Below are positions 8,297 to 27,815 of a stretch of 34,747 nucleotides of DNA, piece after piece. The notes under the pieces are model-generated. The model did no database searches, had not been told where the DNA came from, and saw only the letters and a list, made by a program, of their open reading frames with translations. Location: IMG/VR virus record IMGVR_UViG_3300027917_000105, positions 1-34,747 of that record; one strand, 5' to 3'. The translations under genes and the position numbers were made by a program. The stretch's first letter is position 1, and each line of letters starts with the position of its first letter. The stretch is from a virus.

Positions 8297-8859
8297 TAGG
8301 CACTCCCCGATGGTGGCTTATCTCTTTCTGCCGAACTGCGCCGCTCACTGAGCTTCGTGTAGTACGAAACAGTATGCGACATCCCCCGATGCACTACTTG
8401 AAAAGCCAACTCAGCTCGTATTCGAGTTGGTATGAGTTCTCGATTTCTCCGAATAACATCGAACGAAACCGAAGTGGCCACGACATACCAGGACTCCTCG
8501 CCGATAGCTAACAGCAGTAACGGAGGAGAAACAAATTGCCCGAGGCCTTCGACAAACGGATCGAGATCCTGCACGGCCATGGCCTCAAGCGAAGCTTTTT
8601 CTGCCAACAACCCAGTCGATGTATATTTTTCTGTGGCATCGAAAAACAATTGAAAATTGATATTGTGCGAAGTCACAGACTTAAACACAGCCGTAGGAAA
8701 AGCGGACCCAGGAGCATCTACCATCGAATACTCGGGCGAAATATCTTCCTTAATATTCGTCGGATTGTACTGAAAGACGAGATACGCTTCGGGATCGATC
8801 TCGCCGTCACGAATACGTCCGATCCAACCCTTCTGAACTGGACGGTCTGAAACACTCAT
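8296..8859 (-). CDS. Tube initiator / CIS-tube-like baseplate protein
   Basis: 187 residues, ATG at 8859 overlapping the tape measure stop by ATGA. The sequence VFQYNPTNIKEDISPEYSMVD near residue 28 is the characteristic start of contractile-injection-system tube-family proteins that cap the baseplate end of the inner tube. It is followed by VTSHNINFQLFFDATEKY and SWYVVATSVSFDVIRRNRELIPTRIRAELAF, matching strands that form the tube barrel. The C-terminus is charged and probably disordered. Together with the LysM, gpD-like and spike genes it forms a hub cassette ordered as in many contractile tails. Family recognition is from motif memory, not a search. Confidence 0.8.
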   Translation of the reverse strand: MSVSDRPVQKGWIGRIRDGEIDPEAYLVFQYNPTNIKEDISPEYSMVDAPGSAFPTAVFKSVTSHNINFQLFFDATEKYTSTGLLAEKASLEAMAVQDLDPFVEGLGQFVSPPLLLLAIGEESWYVVATSVSFDVIRRNRELIPTRIRAELAFQVVHRGMSHTVSYYTKLSERRSSAERDKPPSGSA

Positions 8860-11645
8860 TTGAATGCAATCCCTTGTTGATAATCCCAGAACTGCTGCAT
8901 GCGATCACCTGTTTGCTTGGCAATGGCCATCGCATCTTCTTTCGTGGCATTACCCTGAATAATGACCTCGATCTTCCCAACCTTCGGTCCAGCTTCAGCC
9001 ACCGGAGCCATCACCGACTGCTGAGCACCACCTGGACCACCCGATGTTTCCCATCCCTCTCGTTGCCGAGTAATCGGAAAATTCCGACTGTTGGCAGCTA
9101 ATTCGGCAATACGTGCTCGTTGCGCTTCACGACGGCTCACATACTCACTGCCCAATACCCGATCTTCAACCGCTTTCTCCGAAACACCCATATCAACGGT
9201 TACGCCCTCGGTCGCCTTTTTCCAAGCATCGTTTACCTCCTCCTCGGACTTCAATCCAAAGAGCGACATGCCTTTGACAACCAAAAAATCAATCTGGGCA
9301 AAAAACCACTTCTTAAATCCTTCCCAGCCGTTGGTAAATCCCTGACGAATCCATTGAACCATGCCCTCGCCAATTTTCTTGAATGCGTCGAAACCATGCG
9401 TCTCAAACAGCACAACGAAATAATTGAACCAGTACGTAATGGTTTCCATCATGTTGGCGAAGGCGTTTCCAACCTTGGGGCCAACCCTCAGAGCTATTGC
9501 CAAAAGCACGAGGAAAATTATCCCCACGGCTGCGATTTTGAGCTGTGCAACAGTGGCGGCTGAACCCAGTGCCCAAATCATCTGAGTCAATTTCGCAACC
9601 GCCGAAGCTCCAGTAAGAAACTGATTAACTAATAATCCACCAACCAATAATGCCAAAACACCAAAAATAGCACCTACCGCTCGATACACACTCAGTGCGT
9701 TTGTGATGTCAGAGGTTCCAAATGCTTGTGGCAAAAGACCAAGCGCATCGAGCAACTTGCCCGTCACCCAAATCACACCATAAAAAATTCGAAATGCCAG
9801 CTTGAACACACCGCCAATGACTGTGAAGAAGCCCTCGAAAACTGCTACCAACCGTTCCTTTACCTGAATAATGAATCCGACAATACCCAACAGTTGGCGC
9901 TTTTCGAGCATGCGGTACAAATCGATACTGCCTTCACCGCCGTTGAACCACTCAACAACACCCTGAGCAATAAGCCACAGATCCTTAAGCCGCTGCACAA
10001 AAGCATCGATAACAGGACCAAAATACTTACGTATGTGTGACCAATTCTTTATCACCAGATATAAGAGCAAAAAGATGGCCACCACAGCACCGGCGGCGAT
10101 CAAGACACGCAGTATGTTCGTCCGTAATGCAGCAAAGGCTTTGGTTAAAAATGCAATAGAACCACCGGCGGCATTCACCGCTGGAACAACCATCCCCTGG
10201 TACATCAAAAACGCTGCGAGACCAATCAAAACCGTCCCGAGCACTGTAGCAAGACCGCCGAGAAGAGTAATTGTCCAAGAAAGAGCCTTAGCCACCGCTG
10301 GATTCTTCTTCAAGTAAGACAGAAAACCATCCAAGAAAAACTTCAGGACAGCAATCACATCGTAGAATACCGGGAGCATCGCCTTTCCCATGATAATGAG
10401 AATGGTTTGTTCCGTTCCTTTTTTGAGTTCTTTCAGTCCTTCAGTTGTTCTTAGATACGCTTCCTCTGCTTGCTTGAGAACACCGTTTGAGTTATCGACG
10501 TCACCGGATAATCGGTTGACCATCTCACGGAACGACTCTCCCTGCTTCGTGAGTTGTTCAAGCATACTGAGAACAGTCGTTCCCTTAGAACCAAAAGCAC
10601 CACTCATGACAGTGGCTTGCGCCCGGTCACTCTCTTTACCAAGTGACTGCATTTTTTCGAGCGTTTCGACAAGCACATCCTTGAGAGGACGAGTCTTTCC
10701 CGCAGCATCGAACATCGACACGCCAAACTTTTGGAACTGAATCATTCGTTTGGGCAAGTCTTTGGGATCCATCTGAAAGAACTGCTCTTCAGTTATCCCC
10801 TTTTTCTCCATGTACGCGCCGAGTTTGCGTTGATTGCTAATCATTTTTTCGGCAAACAACGCGATGGCCTGCGCAGACTCGGCGGCCTGCATGGACCCCA
10901 TACGCATCGCACCACCGATAGCCAACATCTCGGAAGTCGTTGCCTTGAGTTTTTTCGGTGCATCACGAAGAGCATTGATAAAAGCAGGCATATGCTGCCA
11001 ATTCAATGCCGTCACCCTCGTTGCCTGCGCAATATCATCGAGGGTTTTAGCAAACGGCTGGCCAAGGTGACGAAACTTACTTATCGCACCAATAGTAGTA
11101 CGAATAGCCTCGTCCATACCGAGCATACCGCGAGAACCGGTGACCATCTGGATCACCATCGGGAGTAATTCCATAGATTCTGCTGTGTCCATGCCAGCAG
11201 AACGAAGGTCCGCAAAAGCATGAGCCGCACTTACCGGGGTTTCCTTCGTTTTCAACCCAAGATCGATCATAAAATCTTCAAGTTTTTGCAGCTCTTTTCC
11301 AGTAGCTCCGGTAGCAAATTGGATTCGTCCCATAGCCACTTCAAAATCAGAAGCTCCCTGAATAGCTGGCTGGACAAAGGACGTCGAAATCTTTTTGCCA
11401 ATACTCAATAACCCAAAACCAACACCGGCCAATGCCGCCGATGCTTGAGTCATAGTCTTGGACACAGATTGAGCTTTTTCTTCAACCTCACCCAAACGAA
11501 GAGCAGTTCGACGAGCCGTCTTGTCGATATTATTCAACTGCATCTTCATAATGTTGGCACCGGTAACGACCCCCTTAGTACCAATACGGAAGTTGATCTG
11601 AGAAACCAACTGACTTCCACCGGTCCCCATAAATCCAAGTGCCAT
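8856..11645 (-). CDS. Tail tape measure protein
   Basis: 929 residues, the longest uninterrupted product after TerL and in the expected place after tube and chaperone. Residues 1-110 are helical (a coiled-coil start, then QASAALAGVGFGLLSIGKKISTSF). Residues about 95-330 match the conserved TP901-type tape-measure core (DFEVAMGRIQFATGATGKELQKL, HAFADLRSAGMDTAESMELLP, FRHLGQPFAKTLDDIAQATR). Residues about 430-720 include several strongly hydrophobic stretches (AKALSWTITLLGGLATVLGTV, RVLIAAGAVVAIFLLLYLVI, FGVLALLVGGLLVNQFL, VGIIFLVLLAIALRV) that could enter the host membrane during DNA ejection. The end is charged with VIIQGNATKEDAMAIAKQTGDR. At about 0.15 nm per residue it would give a tail near 140 nm (inference). 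No peptidase or lysozyme motif was found. Confidence 0.92.
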   Translation of the reverse strand: MALGFMGTGGSQLVSQINFRIGTKGVVTGANIMKMQLNNIDKTARRTALRLGEVEEKAQSVSKTMTQASAALAGVGFGLLSIGKKISTSFVQPAIQGASDFEVAMGRIQFATGATGKELQKLEDFMIDLGLKTKETPVSAAHAFADLRSAGMDTAESMELLPMVIQMVTGSRGMLGMDEAIRTTIGAISKFRHLGQPFAKTLDDIAQATRVTALNWQHMPAFINALRDAPKKLKATTSEMLAIGGAMRMGSMQAAESAQAIALFAEKMISNQRKLGAYMEKKGITEEQFFQMDPKDLPKRMIQFQKFGVSMFDAAGKTRPLKDVLVETLEKMQSLGKESDRAQATVMSGAFGSKGTTVLSMLEQLTKQGESFREMVNRLSGDVDNSNGVLKQAEEAYLRTTEGLKELKKGTEQTILIIMGKAMLPVFYDVIAVLKFFLDGFLSYLKKNPAVAKALSWTITLLGGLATVLGTVLIGLAAFLMYQGMVVPAVNAAGGSIAFLTKAFAALRTNILRVLIAAGAVVAIFLLLYLVIKNWSHIRKYFGPVIDAFVQRLKDLWLIAQGVVEWFNGGEGSIDLYRMLEKRQLLGIVGFIIQVKERLVAVFEGFFTVIGGVFKLAFRIFYGVIWVTGKLLDALGLLPQAFGTSDITNALSVYRAVGAIFGVLALLVGGLLVNQFLTGASAVAKLTQMIWALGSAATVAQLKIAAVGIIFLVLLAIALRVGPKVGNAFANMMETITYWFNYFVVLFETHGFDAFKKIGEGMVQWIRQGFTNGWEGFKKWFFAQIDFLVVKGMSLFGLKSEEEVNDAWKKATEGVTVDMGVSEKAVEDRVLGSEYVSRREAQRARIAELAANSRNFPITRQREGWETSGGPGGAQQSVMAPVAEAGPKVGKIEVIIQGNATKEDAMAIAKQTGDRMQQFWDYQQGIAFK

Positions 11646-11656
11646 CGTTACCTCAT

Positions 11657-11827
11657 CTACTTACTGGCTCGTCGATTATCCTCACTGACATAGTCGCAAT
11701 AGATTCTGCGACGACTATTTGGAAGGCGAAGAATCTCGTTTTCCGTCCACCCGTAGGCTGTAGCTAAATGATGAACCTGTTCATACAGATTTTTCAAAAC
11801 TAGCTCGCAGTTCTTCGCCCCCCATCG
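11657..11827 (-). CDS. -1 frame extension of the tail chaperone (frameshift segment)
   Basis: This is the part of the -1 frame that would be translated after slippage at 11827-11833: 56 codons ending in TAG at 11657-11659. Its end encodes a natural-looking short domain: YGWTENEILRLPNSRRRIYCDYV. This resembles small helical proteins found just upstream of tape measure genes in contractile phages. It has no ATG or good Shine-Dalgarno of its own (only a weak TTG at about 11797), while the preceding gene has a canonical slippery heptamer exactly in phase. A ribosome slipping back one base would add these 56 residues to 260 residues of the upstream protein, giving 316 residues. Frame and stop were checked base by base. 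Confidence 0.7.
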   Translation of the reverse strand, partial: RWGAKNCELVLKNLYEQVHHLATAYGWTENEILRLPNSRRRIYCDYVSEDNRRASK

Positions 11828-11833
11828 AAAAAA
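11721..11833 (-). promoter_or_regulatory. Programmed -1 ribosomal frameshift signal
   Basis: On the coding strand the heptamer T TTT TTC lies at 11833-11827, in phase with codons TCT TTT TTC of the chaperone gene. Three bases later GGGGGGCGAAGAA (11823-11811) can pair with TTCTTCGCCTTCC (11733-11721): 13 continuous pairs, two of them G-U, around a 77-nt loop. This is the heptamer-spacer-stem layout of known -1 frameshift sites. The zero-frame stop (11800-11802) lies inside the loop. The spacer is short (3 nt) unless the outer G-C pairs open. The structure is paper-folded, not calculated. Confidence 0.7.
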
Positions 11834-12606
11834 GAGGTCAAATCCACATCTGCTGAAAAATCACGCCCACATCTACATCGTACCTCTTTCCATTGACGCA
11901 CGCCAGGAAACGCAGACTGTAAATGTTGCATGAGATACCGACGATCAGTAGACCGCATGCGCTTCATCATCTCTTGATCAAAACTCGTTAGATCACCCAA
12001 CTGCTTCAGACACGATGCAAACAAAGAGTCAAAAATCTGGGCTGGATTTTTGAGTTCTGCCATCAATTCTTGCTCTTTCCCGGTCGGAAATCGAACTACT
12101 CCCTTCTTGTGAACTTTCCCATCCCGAACAAAACCGCGAGGAAGCTCGAACTCAACTTCCAACGGTTTATCTTCCGGCCATTCGACAACCGGCAATTCAC
12201 TAAGAAAGATGTCTTCTTCCCACGGCTCGTTGCATCGAGGGCACTGGCCTGCCAGCATGGCTTTATCATCACCGCTAAGAATGTAAATTCTCGTGAGCAG
12301 GAATTCGCGGTCAACAATCGTAAGCTTGCGAGCAAACGAACGGTCAAACAGCTTTTCCGGATTTTCTTTGCGGTTAAGATAGCCTTCGATTTTTTGGACA
12401 CATCGACAGAGCAACAATGTCATGGCTTTAGCACCATTGTTGCCCGCTTTCTTGCTCGCGATGTTGTGGTCATCAATACCCGTCATCTCGTCGAGAACAA
12501 CTTTACGATACCGAACACCGTCGACTTCCAGACCAACCGGAAGTCGAACGGTATCGGACATATCATTGATGGGGATTGATTCTACGACATCATATTTCTC
12601 TGACAT
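11800..12606 (-). CDS. Tail assembly chaperone / T4 gp26-type protein (zero frame)
   Basis: 268 residues, ATG at 12606 with AGGAG seven bases upstream. It looks like the T4 baseplate/gp26-type family used as a tail assembly factor: RKVVLDEMTGIDDHNIASKK near the start, LTIVDREFLLTRIYILSGDD, and then a zinc-type pair CPRC (122, 125) with a second pair CRC (244, 246) near the end. A segment reading LPRGFVRDGKVHKKGVVRFPTG lies in the middle. Its position between tube and tape measure genes is where contractile and siphophage tails keep their chaperone pair, usually joined by a frameshift. Here the last eight zero-frame residues follow the slippery site and would be replaced in the long form. Confidence 0.8.
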   Translation of the reverse strand: MSEKYDVVESIPINDMSDTVRLPVGLEVDGVRYRKVVLDEMTGIDDHNIASKKAGNNGAKAMTLLLCRCVQKIEGYLNRKENPEKLFDRSFARKLTIVDREFLLTRIYILSGDDKAMLAGQCPRCNEPWEEDIFLSELPVVEWPEDKPLEVEFELPRGFVRDGKVHKKGVVRFPTGKEQELMAELKNPAQIFDSLFASCLKQLGDLTSFDQEMMKRMRSTDRRYLMQHLQSAFPGVRQWKEVRCRCGRDFSADVDLTSFFDGGRRTAS

Positions 12607-12665: not shown

Positions 12666-13121
12666 CTACGTGGTTTCGAGCTTGATCCCCTCATTTGCGA
12701 GGACCAACGTCTGAATGAGCACTGCATTGGCGTTGGCATCCAAGTCCTCAGTCGAAAACTCCTTCGGCCATGCTCTTTTCACAGTCCACTTCTTGACCCG
12801 AGCACCGCTTTTGTCCTTGAGGTGGATGACGACCGTCTTGCGGAAAGTCTCGTTGTCGCCCTGCTTACCTTCAGAATTGTCGACATCATAAATTTGATTC
12901 CGCCAATTGAGGAAATCATCATCGACTGAAATTCCTCGACCCAACGTGATGTCACCGAAAGTAGTCTGACCTGGAAGATGATGAGGAGTCTCGTTCTCAC
13001 CACCCTCTCGGTAAGTGATGTCCTCGGTTGTTTCCGTCAGCCCGCTCACGGTGGCGAAGCCAGCTCGCGAGAAGCCCTCGATCTCAACCTCGAATTTAAA
13101 ATTTCGATACGGATCTGGCAT
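12666..13121 (-). CDS. Tail tube protein, T4 gp19-like
   Basis: 151 residues. The sequence fits the gp19-type tube family: PYRNFKFEVEIEGFSRAGFAT at the N-terminus, then GLTETTEDITYREGGENETP with PHHLPGQTTFGDITLGRGI, a loop DDDFLNWRNQIYDV, and a C-terminal strand and helix (VVIHLKDKSGARVKKWTVKRAWPKEF). Monomers form stacked hexamers lining the channel. It directly follows the sheath gene in transcription order (31-bp gap), the usual sheath-tube order. Confidence 0.93.
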   Translation of the reverse strand: MPDPYRNFKFEVEIEGFSRAGFATVSGLTETTEDITYREGGENETPHHLPGQTTFGDITLGRGISVDDDFLNWRNQIYDVDNSEGKQGDNETFRKTVVIHLKDKSGARVKKWTVKRAWPKEFSTEDLDANANAVLIQTLVLANEGIKLETT

Positions 13122-13152: not shown

Positions 13153-15603
13153 TTAAACCTCGGTGATGTCGACGCCGCTTGTGTACTGGCTGAAATCAAA
13201 GATAATGAATTCGCCCGGCTTCTGTGCGGCCATACCGATTTTGCCCTTCACCTTTCCGTCGTCGTAATCCGCCTGGTCCATGACACCATCCGTGATGCCG
13301 ACCTTAACGAAAAACGCACTCGCTGCATCCGTCGTAGGGAACGCACCGTCCGTAAGTCTGTCCGACAGATAGGTCACGATCCGATCTTTGAGCTTGCCCC
13401 AGAGGCGGAAGTCGTTGTTCCGGAATACGCCCCAACGAGTGCTGTCGACGATACTCTTCTCGGTGTGTTGGAAGAAACGCCTGGTGTTGATGTACCTGAA
13501 TTTCTGGGCCGTCGAAGCATCGAGTGTCCGACCACCCCAGATGACCACCGGAGACGTGTTGGTGAATTTACGAAGCACGTTGATGTGAGCGTCGTTCATC
13601 AGGCCATGCTCGTAATCGGTGTACTCGGTACCGACATCGAGCGCTGTTCTGAGACGACCATAATCACCCTCACCACTCGGAGTTTCCCACGGACCAGAAT
13701 CCGTCAGAGTGTCGACACGAGACCAGACACCCATGATGCCGCCGAGCCCGGAAATCGTCCGCTTGGGATTCGACCCCGCTCCCAGCGGATCGTAAACCTT
13801 CATGCCACCCGCGTAGAGCATGCCGTAACTGCTGTCGATACCCAAAGTATTGTTGCGATACGCGACCGCAGACGCCCCTGAGAGGCCCGCTGTGACGTAC
13901 CCAATGTAGTCGAACCAAATTCGACTTGCAGCGTACTGACAGCCCGCGTGGAACACTACAGCATTGTTGTTTCCGATCGTGCAGAGGGGCATGAACTCGT
14001 TAATGGTGTCGAAGGCATAAAATCCGGTCTGGCCCGTCTGATCTCCAACCCAGTCGGCATCGGACATACCAGCAGTTTCATCTGTGCCGCCAGTCAAAGC
14101 TGTGGCCGCAGCATCCGAGGCCGGAAGATCTGCACCAAGACCGGCTACTGCATCCATGTCGGTCGCGTACACGTAGGCAGAGCCAAAGTTCTCGTCGTTC
14201 ATCTTGGTTTCGACGTAATTGTCGACAGTGTCGAGCATCGACATCTGAGTCCAGGTCTCGACCAAGACATCGCTCTCGTAAACTTCGACATCGAATTCCT
14301 GCGTCTGAAGCTGAGCAGCGGCCACTACGTAGCCGTTGGTAAAAGACCCACTGATGTCGGCAAAGAACGTCACCGACCCACCAGACACCACCGTACGCAC
14401 GGCGGTGACTTCCTTGTACTCGGTGTTCGTTCCGTCCCAAACTTTAATGACCGACCCCACATTGATTCCCGCCAACGTCACAACCTGAACACTGGTGTCC
14501 GAAGCCGTGATGTCGGCAGCCAGGTCACTACCAGCACCAGCCGACGCATGACGTGGGTTCTGCGTGATCTTGGTCTTGAGGTCATTGCCAGCGGTGCCCG
14601 GAGATTTATATCCCCGGTACCCGGCCTCGAACTTCAGGGTACTGTAAGTCGCCCCGGCATCCGTGCCGACGATAACCTCAACCGAAAGGCCGAGCTTCGT
14701 CAAAGCGACCCCGCTCTGGAAATCCAACTCAGAAGTCGATCCAGTTGTCGGCGAAGCGATGGTAAACACACCGCCGGAAACCGTAACTTCGGCGGTCGTA
14801 TCGTTCTCGACAACTGTTTCCACCTCGGCGGCAGTGACCGCCGAAATGTCGGCGACATCGCCGGTACCCGCTACCGGAGCACCCCACGTCAACGCAGAAG
14901 TCCCAGCAGTGATCGCCACAGAGCTTCCCGTTCCCTCTTGGTCGGAAACGACCTTGACTTGACCACCGTCATCGACGGCAAATCCACCGGCCAACTGTGC
15001 ATTGATCTGATTGATCACGTGCTGAGCCGTAGTCGTGGCTCCCGAGAACGTAATGGTCTGCGCCGTCCCACCATTGAGAGTGATCTGAAAATTCAGACCA
15101 TCCTGATCCGCCACCGGATAAGTAGTGGTATCCACGACATATCCCGCCGCCGCGTCGAAAGTCACGGTTGCCGGACCAACGTTGTCAACATCGAGACTGA
15201 AGGAATCGCCCGGCGAGAGATTATACGTCTCGGCTCCACCTTCCTTCGAAGCACCTGTGGCGGCTACGCCATCAGTGATAGCCGTACGATTGGCGACTCC
15301 TCCGGTATACGAGGTCTTGTCCGTGACATCGCTATAGTTCACCTGTCGACAGGTGATAAGCTCGAAACCTCCCTCGTCAAAAAAGGCCTTGGCCTCGTAC
15401 GCAGCATCACCTCTTGACGCCGCTTCGTACGACCCGAAAACTTTCGTCCAGGCGTCGAATGAACGATGCCTCAACGGAATTCCGGGAGGTCCCTTTTTGG
15501 TTACAGCAATCATTCCTCCGATCCCGAGAGCCGCTGCTTGAATCGGACCCTCTGCCGAAGTCGACTCCTGTGCATACACGTCTGGAAATGTGTAGACTGG
15601 CAT
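13153..15603 (-). CDS. Tail sheath protein with large inserted beta domains
   Basis: 816 residues, ATG at 15603 with AAGGAG eight bases upstream. The ends match contractile sheath proteins: an N-terminal arm (PVYTFPDVYAQESTSAEGPI) with GIGGMIAVTKKGPPGIPLRHRSF, and a C-terminal core with MKVYDPLGAGSNPKRTISGLGGIMGVW, HINVLRKFTNTSPVVIWGGRT, FRYINTRRFFQHTEKSI and a terminal arm. Between about residues 125 and 430 lie extra beta-rich segments, including LNFQITLNGGTAQTITFSG followed by HVINQINAQLAGGFAVDDGG, similar in style to hook IN-type motifs. These insertions probably decorate the outside of the sheath. The length exceeds the common 400-660 residues. The region between sheath and the next gene (15604-15707) shows no clear promoter or terminator. 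Confidence 0.92.
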   Translation of the reverse strand: MPVYTFPDVYAQESTSAEGPIQAAALGIGGMIAVTKKGPPGIPLRHRSFDAWTKVFGSYEAASRGDAAYEAKAFFDEGGFELITCRQVNYSDVTDKTSYTGGVANRTAITDGVAATGASKEGGAETYNLSPGDSFSLDVDNVGPATVTFDAAAGYVVDTTTYPVADQDGLNFQITLNGGTAQTITFSGATTTAQHVINQINAQLAGGFAVDDGGQVKVVSDQEGTGSSVAITAGTSALTWGAPVAGTGDVADISAVTAAEVETVVENDTTAEVTVSGGVFTIASPTTGSTSELDFQSGVALTKLGLSVEVIVGTDAGATYSTLKFEAGYRGYKSPGTAGNDLKTKITQNPRHASAGAGSDLAADITASDTSVQVVTLAGINVGSVIKVWDGTNTEYKEVTAVRTVVSGGSVTFFADISGSFTNGYVVAAAQLQTQEFDVEVYESDVLVETWTQMSMLDTVDNYVETKMNDENFGSAYVYATDMDAVAGLGADLPASDAAATALTGGTDETAGMSDADWVGDQTGQTGFYAFDTINEFMPLCTIGNNNAVVFHAGCQYAASRIWFDYIGYVTAGLSGASAVAYRNNTLGIDSSYGMLYAGGMKVYDPLGAGSNPKRTISGLGGIMGVWSRVDTLTDSGPWETPSGEGDYGRLRTALDVGTEYTDYEHGLMNDAHINVLRKFTNTSPVVIWGGRTLDASTAQKFRYINTRRFFQHTEKSIVDSTRWGVFRNNDFRLWGKLKDRIVTYLSDRLTDGAFPTTDAASAFFVKVGITDGVMDQADYDDGKVKGKIGMAAQKPGEFIIFDFSQYTSGVDITEV

Positions 15604-23509: not shown

Positions 23510-26293
23510 TCAGTCCCACACACCGCGCTTTCCCGGTCGTTTTGGCCGCCGAGGTTCGAACACTCCCCGGTACCAAGCGCGGGCATTTTTCATTGCATCT
23601 GACGCCGCCCATCGGGCAGCCCGACCGATGAATGGATTCGGTCCTTCTTCCACTTCCACCGTCCCCCTAGAATTAACCAACCAGGCCAACATCATAAGTG
23701 AATCACCATAGTCGTCGCGAGCATCCGAAGAATGTTTCGGCTTGTGGACCAACATCTGTTGGCCACGCCATTCCTTTTCTAGATCTTCCATCTGATTAAT
23801 AAAACGCTGCCACTTCTGCATCCGCGTGACACGATGGCCAGCGGGAAAAGTCAGTCGACGAGTCATCAATTCCTGATGCAGAATCTTGTAACCGAGATCC
23901 TTGGTGGAAGAATTGAAAATAAACGGAATCACCGACACGCCATAGCCTTCGAGGTCTGCTGCCAGTCGCGAGTAGATCGGATCGCCCTTACCAGTGGCAT
24001 CGATGATGGCCTGCGACAACTTGTAATTTTTGAGAAACGCCATTATCTGTGGGTGCTGAGCTTCGTGGTCATCACCATACAACTCCAACCAGTTGAGTAT
24101 GTGTATGTAAAAACGCTCTGAATCTGCATAATCGACGGGCATCTCCCAGAAAATTTTACCGACCGTAATTACCGTCGAGTTCGTTCTCCCCACGTCAATA
24201 GCAGCCACGATCCCATCATTATGCGCGTCGTACGTCACAACATTCGGCGCACGCGAAAAGGTGATCGTCTTTTTCCGACGACCCCTACCCTGCACAGTTG
24301 TAAGGTGACTAGCATTGTCGCGAATACCGCAGTCATGAAGAACATCTGGATTGATAAACATCCCACGATCGAGCAGCCAATGCAGACGATATTTCATCCG
24401 AAATTCATCTGAATCCTCACCAAGTCGGGCTTTCTCTTTGACGATGTATTTACGGTATCGAGGGTTGTACTTCTGGCCGACAGTGTAATCGAATTCAAAA
24501 TGACACCGCTTTTTGGATCGCAAATTTCCGGCAGCAAGATCTGCTCGCTTGTTCCGTCGACACGCCATGTAGAACTCAGAACGCTTTCGATTCGGGGTCC
24601 CAATCTTCACCAGAGAACCGCCGACGGCAGCACCCATGGGATGGATGGATTCTAAGATCTTGTCTGTCGGAATATCCTGGCACTCCTCAAGCAAAAGCAG
24701 GTGATATGTCTTACCTTCTATCTTAGACTGAGGCGAAGCAGTACCAGCATCGACAAACGATCCGTTTGGCAGCACCATGTTCTCGCGTTCGTTGTTGAGG
24801 TTGATGTCGATGTCCGGATCCATCAACGCTGCACGAGCAGAGTGCGAATAGAGCCGGGACTTCATCCGGGACCACAGGATACCCGTCTGTTCGTAGTTCG
24901 GCGCATAAATGCCCACCCAAAGACCCTCACTGAACTTTGCAATTCGAGAATCCCACCGGATGTTCTGGGCAAACACGGGAAAAAGAACCATGCACCCGAC
25001 CACGACACAGGCAATAGATTCCGTGTTGTGGGTAACCGTGTAGTCTCCCAGGAGAAAACGCTTATTTCCGTCCAGCACAAATCCGTAATACTTTCCCACA
25101 CCTTTCGGGCAAATCTTAAAACCGTAATGTAATGGATTTTCCTGAAGCTGCTTCTTTTTCCGTTTTTTGCGCGCCACCCGCAACGGAAGTTCTGACATTT
25201 GCCCATACAAACCAAGACGAATGTACTCGACATCATCAACATACTTCGATTTTCGTGAAACACGAAAGCCGAGCGACTGAGCTAAACGACGAATATCCTC
25301 AATCAAACACGTCTTTTTCATCGTCAGCTCGCAGCAATTATTTCCATGAACGTGACCGTCGGTATCGATTATGCCAGCCAATAATCGCCGACGCACAACA
25401 GCAGAATTGGCCATGTACAAATGAGGAATGTGTTTTCTATTTTTCCCCAGAAGATCAAAATCCCGCAAAAAGTTGCGAACTGGATTTCGATTGGCACCGC
25501 CGAAAGCTGTTCCTGAAACAATGGCGTACGAAGAACATTGACCTCGCTCGGAATACTCCGAGAGAACCATTCCCAAAGAAGCCGCCAGCTCTCGTAAATA
25601 TTCCACAATTTCTTGGTCACTATCTGCAATAGTGACTGCTGTGTCATAGCTTCTCCCGTCGCCCAACCAGCAGCCAAACCAGTAAGGGTCCATCGGAACA
25701 TCCCGATGGACGTATTCCACTGGAACCTTGTATCCCAGATAACTGCTTTCGATATTCTTGAGCTTCAGAAATTTGCGTAAAGGCAAATCCACTCGGGTGC
25801 CATCGTATCGTTTTTCGACCGAAAGGATGTGTTCCGCATTCACCGTATATTCATCGTGCGTATCTGGACAATTCGGAACAATGGCGTACATCGGACTTTC
25901 GCCAAAAGCCAACTGAAGAACCTGTCGTGGAGTTGAATCATCACCCATCAGAAGGTCACCAACACGAACGTCTTCGACCAACTTCCGCGTACCGTCAAAC
26001 ATCAAGACCTCAGTACCTGGTGCCAGGCACTTACCCGACTGCCTAGCAAACAATGCGGTGATTTCGTCCGAGTCTTCAGACAGCAGAGAATACGCCACAC
26101 GCCAGGCAAATTCTATTTGGTATGGATGCAGCTCCACTCCCGTCATTTCCTGTACGTAGGCAATGACGAGGTCACAGAGTTTCGCTATTTCCTCATCTGT
26201 CAGGTCCTTATTTGGTACATCCTTAAATGAGCCCTTAACTGAATCCTCGTAGTTCTTGAGCGTATCTTTCTTCTGTTTCTCAGCTATTTTCAT
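23510..26293 (-). CDS. terL: Terminase large subunit interrupted by an intein
   Basis: 927 residues from ATG 26293 (a GTG at 26302 is also possible; neither has a strong Shine-Dalgarno). After removal of a 335-residue intein (residues 89-423) the host protein is 592 residues, normal for TerL. The ATPase has an adenine-side motif (ELHPYQIEFAWRVAY), Walker A split as ARQSGK / TES, Walker B LLLLEE at 532-537 (Glu where Asp is usual) and the coupling motif KIGTPNRKRSEF near 563. The nuclease has acidic residues in AIDVGRTNS (D700), IIDATGKGD (D765) and DDYGDSLMM (D864). It cuts and pumps DNA into the head. No TerS candidate lies immediately upstream. Confidence 0.95.
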   Translation of the reverse strand: MKIAEKQKKDTLKNYEDSVKGSFKDVPNKDLTDEEIAKLCDLVIAYVQEMTGVELHPYQIEFAWRVAYSLLSEDSDEITALFARQSGKCLAPGTEVLMFDGTRKLVEDVRVGDLLMGDDSTPRQVLQLAFGESPMYAIVPNCPDTHDEYTVNAEHILSVEKRYDGTRVDLPLRKFLKLKNIESSYLGYKVPVEYVHRDVPMDPYWFGCWLGDGRSYDTAVTIADSDQEIVEYLRELAASLGMVLSEYSERGQCSSYAIVSGTAFGGANRNPVRNFLRDFDLLGKNRKHIPHLYMANSAVVRRRLLAGIIDTDGHVHGNNCCELTMKKTCLIEDIRRLAQSLGFRVSRKSKYVDDVEYIRLGLYGQMSELPLRVARKKRKKKQLQENPLHYGFKICPKGVGKYYGFVLDGNKRFLLGDYTVTHNTESIACVVVGCMVLFPVFAQNIRWDSRIAKFSEGLWVGIYAPNYEQTGILWSRMKSRLYSHSARAALMDPDIDINLNNERENMVLPNGSFVDAGTASPQSKIEGKTYHLLLLEECQDIPTDKILESIHPMGAAVGGSLVKIGTPNRKRSEFYMACRRNKRADLAAGNLRSKKRCHFEFDYTVGQKYNPRYRKYIVKEKARLGEDSDEFRMKYRLHWLLDRGMFINPDVLHDCGIRDNASHLTTVQGRGRRKKTITFSRAPNVVTYDAHNDGIVAAIDVGRTNSTVITVGKIFWEMPVDYADSERFYIHILNWLELYGDDHEAQHPQIMAFLKNYKLSQAIIDATGKGDPIYSRLAADLEGYGVSVIPFIFNSSTKDLGYKILHQELMTRRLTFPAGHRVTRMQKWQRFINQMEDLEKEWRGQQMLVHKPKHSSDARDDYGDSLMMLAWLVNSRGTVEVEEGPNPFIGRAARWAASDAMKNARAWYRGVFEPRRPKRPGKRGVWD
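25025..26029 (-). other. Intein with LAGLIDADG homing endonuclease inside TerL
   Basis: 335 residues inserted in frame between Lys88 and the Thr of Walker A. The first residue is Cys with the block A pattern CLAPGTEVLMFDGTRK. Block B reads YTVNAEHILSV, with Asn in the usual Thr place but the His kept. The C-terminus is FLLGDYTVTHN followed by extein Thr, giving the His-Asn / Thr splice junction. The endonuclease has two LAGLIDADG helices: YWFGCWLGDG (intein 116-125) and LLAGIIDTDG (216-225), each with an acidic residue. All splicing and cutting residues appear intact, so it is probably active. Splicing is required to restore the ATP-binding loop. Confidence 0.95.
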
Positions 26294-26389
26294 GATACCC
26301 ACATTTCACAGAGCAACGACCACTGGCCTCTCAACTTTGGTATCACGATAGCGTAAAAGGCATTGCTTTTCCAGTTAGGTGCTTTGAAG

Positions 26390-26898: not shown

Positions 26899-27159
26899 TC
26901 AGAATCTGACCGTGCAGCCTTTGAAAACACCACCACAACACACCGTGGCGTGGGTTCGCACTTTGTCCCGGACACCAGTGACTTCAAAGGCAACATCATC
27001 ATCTTTACTACACCCAAACAATGACGGTGCCAACCAGTGCGTGTTTTTAATGGTGACCTCGGTAAACCCTAAAGCATGCATGGCATCGAATGCACTATCC
27101 TCCGATACAAAAAGTCCGCAACCGGTCAACAGCACGAGCACAACAATCAAAAATTTCAT
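26899..27159 (-). CDS. Small lipoprotein
   Basis: 86 residues, ATG at 27159 overlapping the thyX stop (ATGA). It starts with a lipoprotein signal peptide: MK, a hydrophobic run (FLIVVLVLL) and the lipobox LTGC with the lipidated Cys at 14. The mature part ends with FGCSKDDDVAFEVTGVRDK and VCCGGVFKGCTVRF. This Cys-containing pattern (GCSxDD...TVC..FKGxTVRF) is one I have seen in small phage and bacterial proteins of unknown role. A membrane-anchored location is well supported; superinfection exclusion or an outer-membrane spanin role is speculation, and no inner-membrane spanin partner is visible beside it. Confidence 0.85.
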   Translation of the reverse strand: MKFLIVVLVLLTGCGLFVSEDSAFDAMHALGFTEVTIKNTHWLAPSLFGCSKDDDVAFEVTGVRDKVRTHATVCCGGVFKGCTVRF

Positions 27160-27815
27160 TCTTCTTTTCCTTTTCCCAAATACTTCTTGTACAACCCACC
27201 AAAAATTGCAGGCGATTCCCAGTACAAAAACTTGAGAACATCACGAGCACATCTCCGAATAATCGGATGAGCCGCACTGGAGCATCGAAGTTCGAGAATA
27301 TGCAGCCATTCGCGGATGTTCGCCTTGATCGCAATCTGTGTCTGTAACCCAATCGGAAGAACCGACCGAGCTTCTTCGGGAGGAATGCCCATCACCCGCA
27401 ACTGCTTGTAAAACTGCTCCGCATGCTCCATCGCTAACGTCCACAACGAAGAAGCACCTTGGTCAGCGGCGATCGAGGGCTGTTCTATCACAGTGATCTC
27501 GCCGCCGAATCGCTTACCAGTATGATCACAATACCGAGTACTCGTTTGAGCAAACGAAGCCAGACGGTGCCTGACAATCTCGTGCGACATCCCACGATCA
27601 CACGAAAAAATGACTGCCGCATCACAGAATTCGAGCATTGCGTGATGCCCTCGATTCACCAGGTGCGTCACGAGCTTGACGTCACTACCCTTCTTTATTC
27701 GATCCTGACTCCGATAACAGATGCGAGCATAATGCTCGATGACCGTATCGATAGTTGAGAAACCCGTGGGGAGAATCAATCGTACTTCTTCTACTTGTGC
27801 ATGGGCTATTTTCAT
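27156..27815 (-). CDS. thyX: Flavin-dependent thymidylate synthase
   Basis: 219 residues, ATG at 27815 with AGAAGGAGG upstream. The ThyX signature is complete: GHHAMLEF at 56-63, RHR at 82-84 followed by seven residues and Ser92 (RHRLASFAQTSTRY), EARSVLP at 149-155, and the C-terminal REWLHILELRC with AHPIIR. It makes dTMP from dUMP using FAD, NADPH and methylenetetrahydrofolate, supplying thymidine for phage replication. It is the only metabolic enzyme in the window. The lipoprotein gene overlaps its stop. Confidence 0.97.
   Translation of the reverse strand: MKIAHAQVEEVRLILPTGFSTIDTVIEHYARICYRSQDRIKKGSDVKLVTHLVNRGHHAMLEFCDAAVIFSCDRGMSHEIVRHRLASFAQTSTRYCDHTGKRFGGEITVIEQPSIAADQGASSLWTLAMEHAEQFYKQLRVMGIPPEEARSVLPIGLQTQIAIKANIREWLHILELRCSSAAHPIIRRCARDVLKFLYWESPAIFGGLYKKYLGKGKEE

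Follow-up and report, generated by a model that had tools for sequence, protein, structure and literature searches.

The locus in front of the tape measure gene of the virus analysed here very probably gives rise to two tail assembly chaperones (TACs) by a programmed −1 ribosomal frameshift, namely, a short form of 268 aa (TAC-N) and a long form of 316 aa (TAC-NC), as far as can be judged from the nucleotide sequence. The initial annotation had proposed a −1 frameshift cassette at this place. The proposal is strengthened by a slippery heptamer that recurs in all related −1-frame lineages, by the assignment of the −1 frame product to PF20546, by the lack of starts with a ribosome-binding site, and by the covariation of a stem in close relatives. 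The locus is ordinary in kind, and the parts of wider interest are a branch of the family with a +1 frame and the likely function of DUF6760 (PF20546).

Gene Order and Type of Phage

The whole stretch of DNA that was analysed, referred to as the window, has 34,747 bp and corresponds to one virus record in IMG/VR. Genes for terminase, portal, major head protein, sheath, tube, tape measure, and baseplate lie on its minus strand, so the phage is, on the basis of its gene content, contractile-tailed. The genes surrounding the locus are as follows:

13153..15603, minus strand: tail sheath protein (phrog_23, E 1.3e-29)
12666..13121, minus strand: tail tube protein (gp19 type), upstream neighbour (PF06841, E 2.2e-37)
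11800..12606, minus strand: zero-frame ORF of 268 aa, putative TAC-N of the T4 gp26 type (PF12322, E 4.1e-6)
8856..11645, minus strand: tape measure protein, downstream neighbour (phrog_28, E 1.2e-32; PF10145, E 2.5e-12)

The order of sheath, tube, 268-aa locus, and tape measure, with the locus lying between the tube and tape measure genes, is the usual one for TACs. The tape measure gene starts 11 nt past the stop of the −1 frame. Elsewhere in the window, the gene of the terminase large subunit (23510-26302, minus strand) contains an intein that has a Hint domain and a LAGLIDADG homing endonuclease domain, and a ThyX-type thymidylate synthase gene is present at 27156-27815 on the minus strand (PF02511, E 7.3e-43).

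The Slippery Heptamer and the Downstream Stem

The elements of the site are all on the minus strand and are listed in the direction of translation:

11827..11833, minus strand: slippery heptamer T_TTT_TTC, in phase, codons F259-F260 (read directly; kept in relatives)
11811..11824, minus strand: 5' arm of the stem (folding; covariation in five sequences)
11800..11802, minus strand: zero-frame stop TAG, in the 77-nt loop (read directly)
11796..11798, minus strand: TTG, the only possible start in the −1 frame, 2 nt past the zero-frame stop and without a Shine-Dalgarno sequence (sequence reading)
11720..11733, minus strand: 3' arm of the stem, encoding LRLP in the −1 frame (folding; covariation in five sequences)
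11657..11833, minus strand: −1 frame segment with the putative TAC-C domain (PF20546, DUF6760; E 3.7e-7 to 3.9e-7), stop at 11659-11657

The heptamer is located at the 3' end of the 268-aa ORF, in the context ACC TCT TTT TTC GAT GGG, and it is exactly in phase, as had been claimed. Among the 9101 codon positions of the 28 coding sequences of the window, no other in-phase T_TTT_TTC is present. The −1 ORF runs without interruption from 11860 down to its stop and spans the zero-frame stop. The claim that 3 nt and then a 13-bp stem follow, with a 77-nt loop holding the zero-frame stop, also agrees with the sequence; the same stem can equivalently be described as 14 pairs, including G-U, that begin 2 nt after the heptamer. 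The minimum free energy of the 120 nt downstream of the heptamer is −40.3 kcal/mol (z = −3.1). The search of Rfam revealed no known RNA element.

Conservation of the stem among homologues was observed only at close range. In the five nearest sequences, 80% of the cells were paired, both sides were changed in 4 of the 14 pairs, the covariation score was reached by none of 500 shuffles, and slid versions of the stem scored worse. More distant relatives do not keep the structure, and z is near −1 in many of them. The idea that the family as a whole shares a downstream structure was rejected, as the z-scores scatter. Since the spacer of 2-3 nt is shorter than usual and the structure is lost at greater distance, the stem may be an auxiliary element confined to this lineage.

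On the basis of this anatomy, the following course of events can be proposed. Most ribosomes would end at TAG and release the gp26-type TAC-N. A minority would be held at T_TTT_TTC by the downstream stem, shift back by one base at the pair of Phe codons, and continue for 56 residues in the −1 frame. Their product, TAC-NC, would carry a helical domain of the DUF6760 type (TAC-C). The fusion translated in this way would have 316 aa, in agreement with the length of about 316 residues that had been predicted. By analogy with lambda G/GT, TAC-N would coat the tape measure protein, while the additional domain of the rarer TAC-NC could bring in tube subunits or initiate the polymerisation of the tube, and both forms would leave before the virion is completed. 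The anatomy of the sequence, the conserved site and frame, the kinship of the domains, the gene order, and the covarying stem were observed directly; the slippage itself, its efficiency, and the role as chaperones are what we infer.

The Zero-Frame Protein

The 268-aa protein belongs to the family of T4 gp26 (PF12322, T4_baseplate; 27.1 bits against a gathering score of 24.5), in line with its initial description as a T4 gp26-like type. It also matches phrog_150 (baseplate hub) and, weakly, phrog_508 (tail assembly chaperone). The latter match is just E 0.0026 for the window protein itself; among its relatives, 11 of 35 match phrog_508, with a best value of 1.6e-10. The score against PF10109 (Phage_TAC_7, the family of P2 E and Mu 41) is 16.4 bits and remains below the cut-off of 25; a relative (L052) reaches 21.7. 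The AlphaFold model of the protein is a confident one (pLDDT 91); among the named viral proteins that it resembles in structure, T4-like baseplate hub assembly proteins predominate. Neither a PDB sequence search with both profiles nor Foldseek against the PDB revealed a solved relative.

The −1 Frame Domain and Its Relatives

The −1 segment passes the gathering score of PF20546 (30.5 bits against 27), and its predicted model consists of three helices (pLDDT 83). When the −1 domain alone was compared with phages by tblastn, only chance matches were obtained, mostly to tail fibre genes, and a literature search for DUF6760 yielded no paper. The relatives comprised about 120 loci from searches of viral contigs and phage records. 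For the survey of frames, a profile of the DUF6760-type domain was seeded with 14 of these sequences, any frame was allowed, and lineages were dereplicated at under 80% identity.

In all loci with enough sequence, the DUF6760 domain after the gp26-type gene lies in a shifted overlapping frame and never in frame; in the group of the window, it is always the −1 frame. Between pairs of relatives, the −1 domain changes most at third codon positions, and so it is evidently translated, as this pattern of substitution indicates. The notion that the −1 frame encodes a natural short domain is supported by this bias and by the membership in a conserved family.

The overlap contains an in-phase X_XXY_YYZ in 25 of 25 −1-frame lineages, compared with 3.5 expected; the background rate in the bodies of gp26-type genes is 0.5% of codons. 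The letters of the heptamer drift (T_TTT_TTC, G_GGT_TTT, A_AAT_TTT, T_TTT_TTA, and others), with the slippery pattern retained. The inspection of homologues, which had been put forward as a check, shows the slippery pattern in every −1-frame lineage.

Two alternatives can be judged from these data. A sequencing error or the decay of an in-frame fusion gene could be imagined, given that the T6 homopolymer is error-prone and that the in-frame form exists, the two domains being fused in T4 gp51. This explanation is practically negligible and already refuted by the relatives: 25 lineages, which come from different metagenomes, share the shift and its position, and none of them is in frame. The run of six T could also allow RNA polymerase to add or drop a U, and mRNAs of mixed lengths could then give the −1 frame. 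Such transcriptional slippage is extremely unlikely, as G_GGT_TTT and A_AAT_TTT in relatives are shorter homopolymers that fit tandem tRNA slippage, and the covarying stem fits ribosomal stimulation.

A third explanation is that the −1 domain is a separate small protein made by translational coupling, with reinitiation at the TTG 2 nt after TAG. The statement that the −1 frame has no good start of its own stands in so far as no start with a Shine-Dalgarno sequence is found, and is to be qualified by this one weak, non-conserved TTG (11798-11796). Among the 25 lineages, none combines a Shine-Dalgarno sequence with a start for the −1 domain, and in 19 of them, ATG, GTG, and TTG are absent from the scanned stretch; there is no start at all in L043 and L001 and only CTG in L005 and L002. 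Moreover, coupling would conserve neither an in-phase heptamer in every lineage nor a −1 frame open upstream to the heptamer.

Coupling has its precedents outside the clade of the window. The DUF6760 domain was found in 22 of 397 genomes searched from one bacterial phylum (L127-L148), in loci that probably belong to contractile injection systems. There, too, the domain is shifted by −1 with respect to the preceding gene, but in most cases it starts at a GTG or ATG of its own that overlaps the stop (TGA), and several of these starts are preceded by the ribosome-binding site GGGGGA. The bacterial PF20546 loci, therefore, differ from the window in using coupled translation rather than a heptamer. 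Two of them (L133 and L137) have CTG and GGGGCGA at the position of the start, and a frameshift may occur there. In the distant phage Cygsa01, the domain is a separate short gene whose start overlaps the stop. Relatives that kept the domain, lost the heptamer, and gained a start, which the initial annotation had named as refuting evidence, were encountered only in such bacterial loci and in some distant phages; there are none in the window's own clade. For the window, coupling is very unlikely, and the −1 frameshift is retained as the explanation.

A Sister Clade with the Domain in the +1 Frame

A sister clade of 53 lineages has the DUF6760 domain in the +1 frame after the gp26-type gene. In 52 of these lineages, TTT followed by C or T is present within the last zero-frame codons, compared with 0.5 expected, and the codon after TTT is CGN in 36 of the 52 and otherwise CAR, CTY, or a stop. 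The members are L019-L022, L042, L056-L121, L123, and L124, and the motif conserved among them is TTT[C/T], mostly TTT CGN. In a quick tree, 54 +1 tips formed one group (SH-aLRT 98); the family as a whole needs three changes of frame direction, only one of which is forced by the tree.

One branch of the family, thus, seems from its sequences to slip forward (+1) instead of back. At UUU_C, the Phe tRNA could re-pair one base ahead and thereby enter the +1 frame. UUU_CGU is the site of influenza PA-X (PMC3498833), and +1 shifts are known in other phage tail genes, namely, in Listeria phages and in SPP1 17.1 (PMC3498833, PMC6316719). A literature search found no report of the +1 branch at UUU[C/U]; the full text of Vladimirov et al. 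2022 was outside this search. It is likely that the direction of frameshifting switched within the family, between the −1 clade and the +1 sister clade at UUU[C/U] (mostly UUU_CGN). Together with the two genes of T4 and the overlapping start of the bacterial loci, this would make four ways to produce the long form.

The Streptomyces phages BRock, LuckySocke, GiJojo, and pSt2308 and the Streptococcus phage vB_SagM-GXN1 belong to the +1 branch or are alike, with BRock, LuckySocke, and GiJojo placed within the sister clade, and the database records of these five phages show no joined gene. In BRock (L021, 4767-4949), gp135 is annotated as a separate hypothetical gene with a start in the middle of the domain; it most probably represents the 3' portion of a chaperone gene that is frameshifted by +1.

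Comparison with Known Chaperone Loci

One parallel is P2 E+E', with an annotated −1 shift at T_TTT_TTG. It shares with the window the place before the tape measure gene, a near-identical heptamer, and a −1 domain related to E'. The profile of the shifted-frame domains matched the E' frame of P2 by hhalign (P 1.5e-5), and E' outscored 5000 shuffles (best of 5001). Kinship to known frameshifted TACs is seen through E' and through the phrog_508 matches of the relatives. The zero-frame part of P2 E differs from that of the window, as it is 91 aa long and has no Cys pairs, and the similarity to Phage_TAC_7 is below the cut-off.

Lambda G/GT uses the heptamer G_GGA_AAG and protein families unlike those of the window. 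Its likeness lies in the logic and the place of the locus (PMC5009743). In SPP1, the TAC pair 17.5/17.5* is predicted to use UUUUUUC (PMC6316719), and the heptamer, the role, and the place are shared with the window; SPP1, unlike the window, is a siphovirus. In the Pseudomonas phage Adele, a −1 frameshift between TAC-N and TAC-NC was proposed bioinformatically for myoviruses, with the next frame mis-annotated, as in the present case; Adele belongs to another phage family (Vandenendeviridae) and has the motif GTTTTT (PMC12846349).

In T4 (L149, 3803-5229), gp26 and gp51 are both members of PF12322, the family of the window's zero-frame protein. Genes 26 and 51 are reportedly those named as T4-like TACs by Vladimirov and co-workers. 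The C-terminal part of gp51, taken from an alignment of eight T4-like phages, matched the shifted-frame domain profile with a probability of 81% (P 1.2e-5); column-shuffled controls scored at most 11 compared with 31. The match rose to 93% when the short downstream domains of four distant phages were added; one gp51 sequence on its own did not match the profile significantly. T4 gp51, thus, resembles a gp26-type protein with a C-terminal domain related to DUF6760 and fused in frame, and gp26 and gp51 look, from their sequences, like separate short and long chaperone genes. T4 has the two forms in two genes, whereas the window has one gene and a −1 frameshift; the record of the window, which may be incomplete, holds one match and not two. 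The initial annotation had regarded a gp26-type fusion as unusual. This judgement can no longer be upheld, since gp26-type proteins are the short TACs of T4-like phages and gp51 looks like the in-frame fused form.

In PMC3004832, T4 gp26 and gp51 appear among the chaperones of hub assembly, and T4 is a stated exception to G-T frameshifting (PMC5009743). According to its title, a study by Vladimirov, Gautam & Davidson (2022, Virology 566:9-15, cited in PMC12846349 and PMC10885494) identified the TACs of T4-like phages and proposed a non-frameshifting mechanism. T4-like TACs were, therefore, known before, and the link between gp51 and TACs is not presented as new. Poly-T sites have also been described for the TAC-N genes of T4-like phages (PMC12846349). 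In the cyanophage S-CAM8 (L150), the end of the gp26 gene at 2184 contains an in-phase T_TTT_TTC, and an unannotated −1 frame encodes a domain like the C-terminal part of gp51. In the cyanophage S-SCSM1 (L151), the gp26 gene ends at 2187 with TCT TTT TTC GCT TAG, and the domain that follows lies in the +1 frame, as a short gene (2210-2374) for which a separate start is annotated.

These comparisons suggest that DUF6760 (PF20546) probably functions as the C-terminal half of a TAC and would unite T4 gp26/gp51, P2 E/E', and numerous myoviruses from metagenomes in a single family. With −1 and +1 branches that share a homologous site, the family provides a natural experiment in changing the direction of frameshifting. 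In addition, gene callers regularly overlook the long form: S-CAM8 and pSt2308 have no annotation for the shifted frame, and in BRock and LuckySocke, the annotated gene starts in the middle of the domain.
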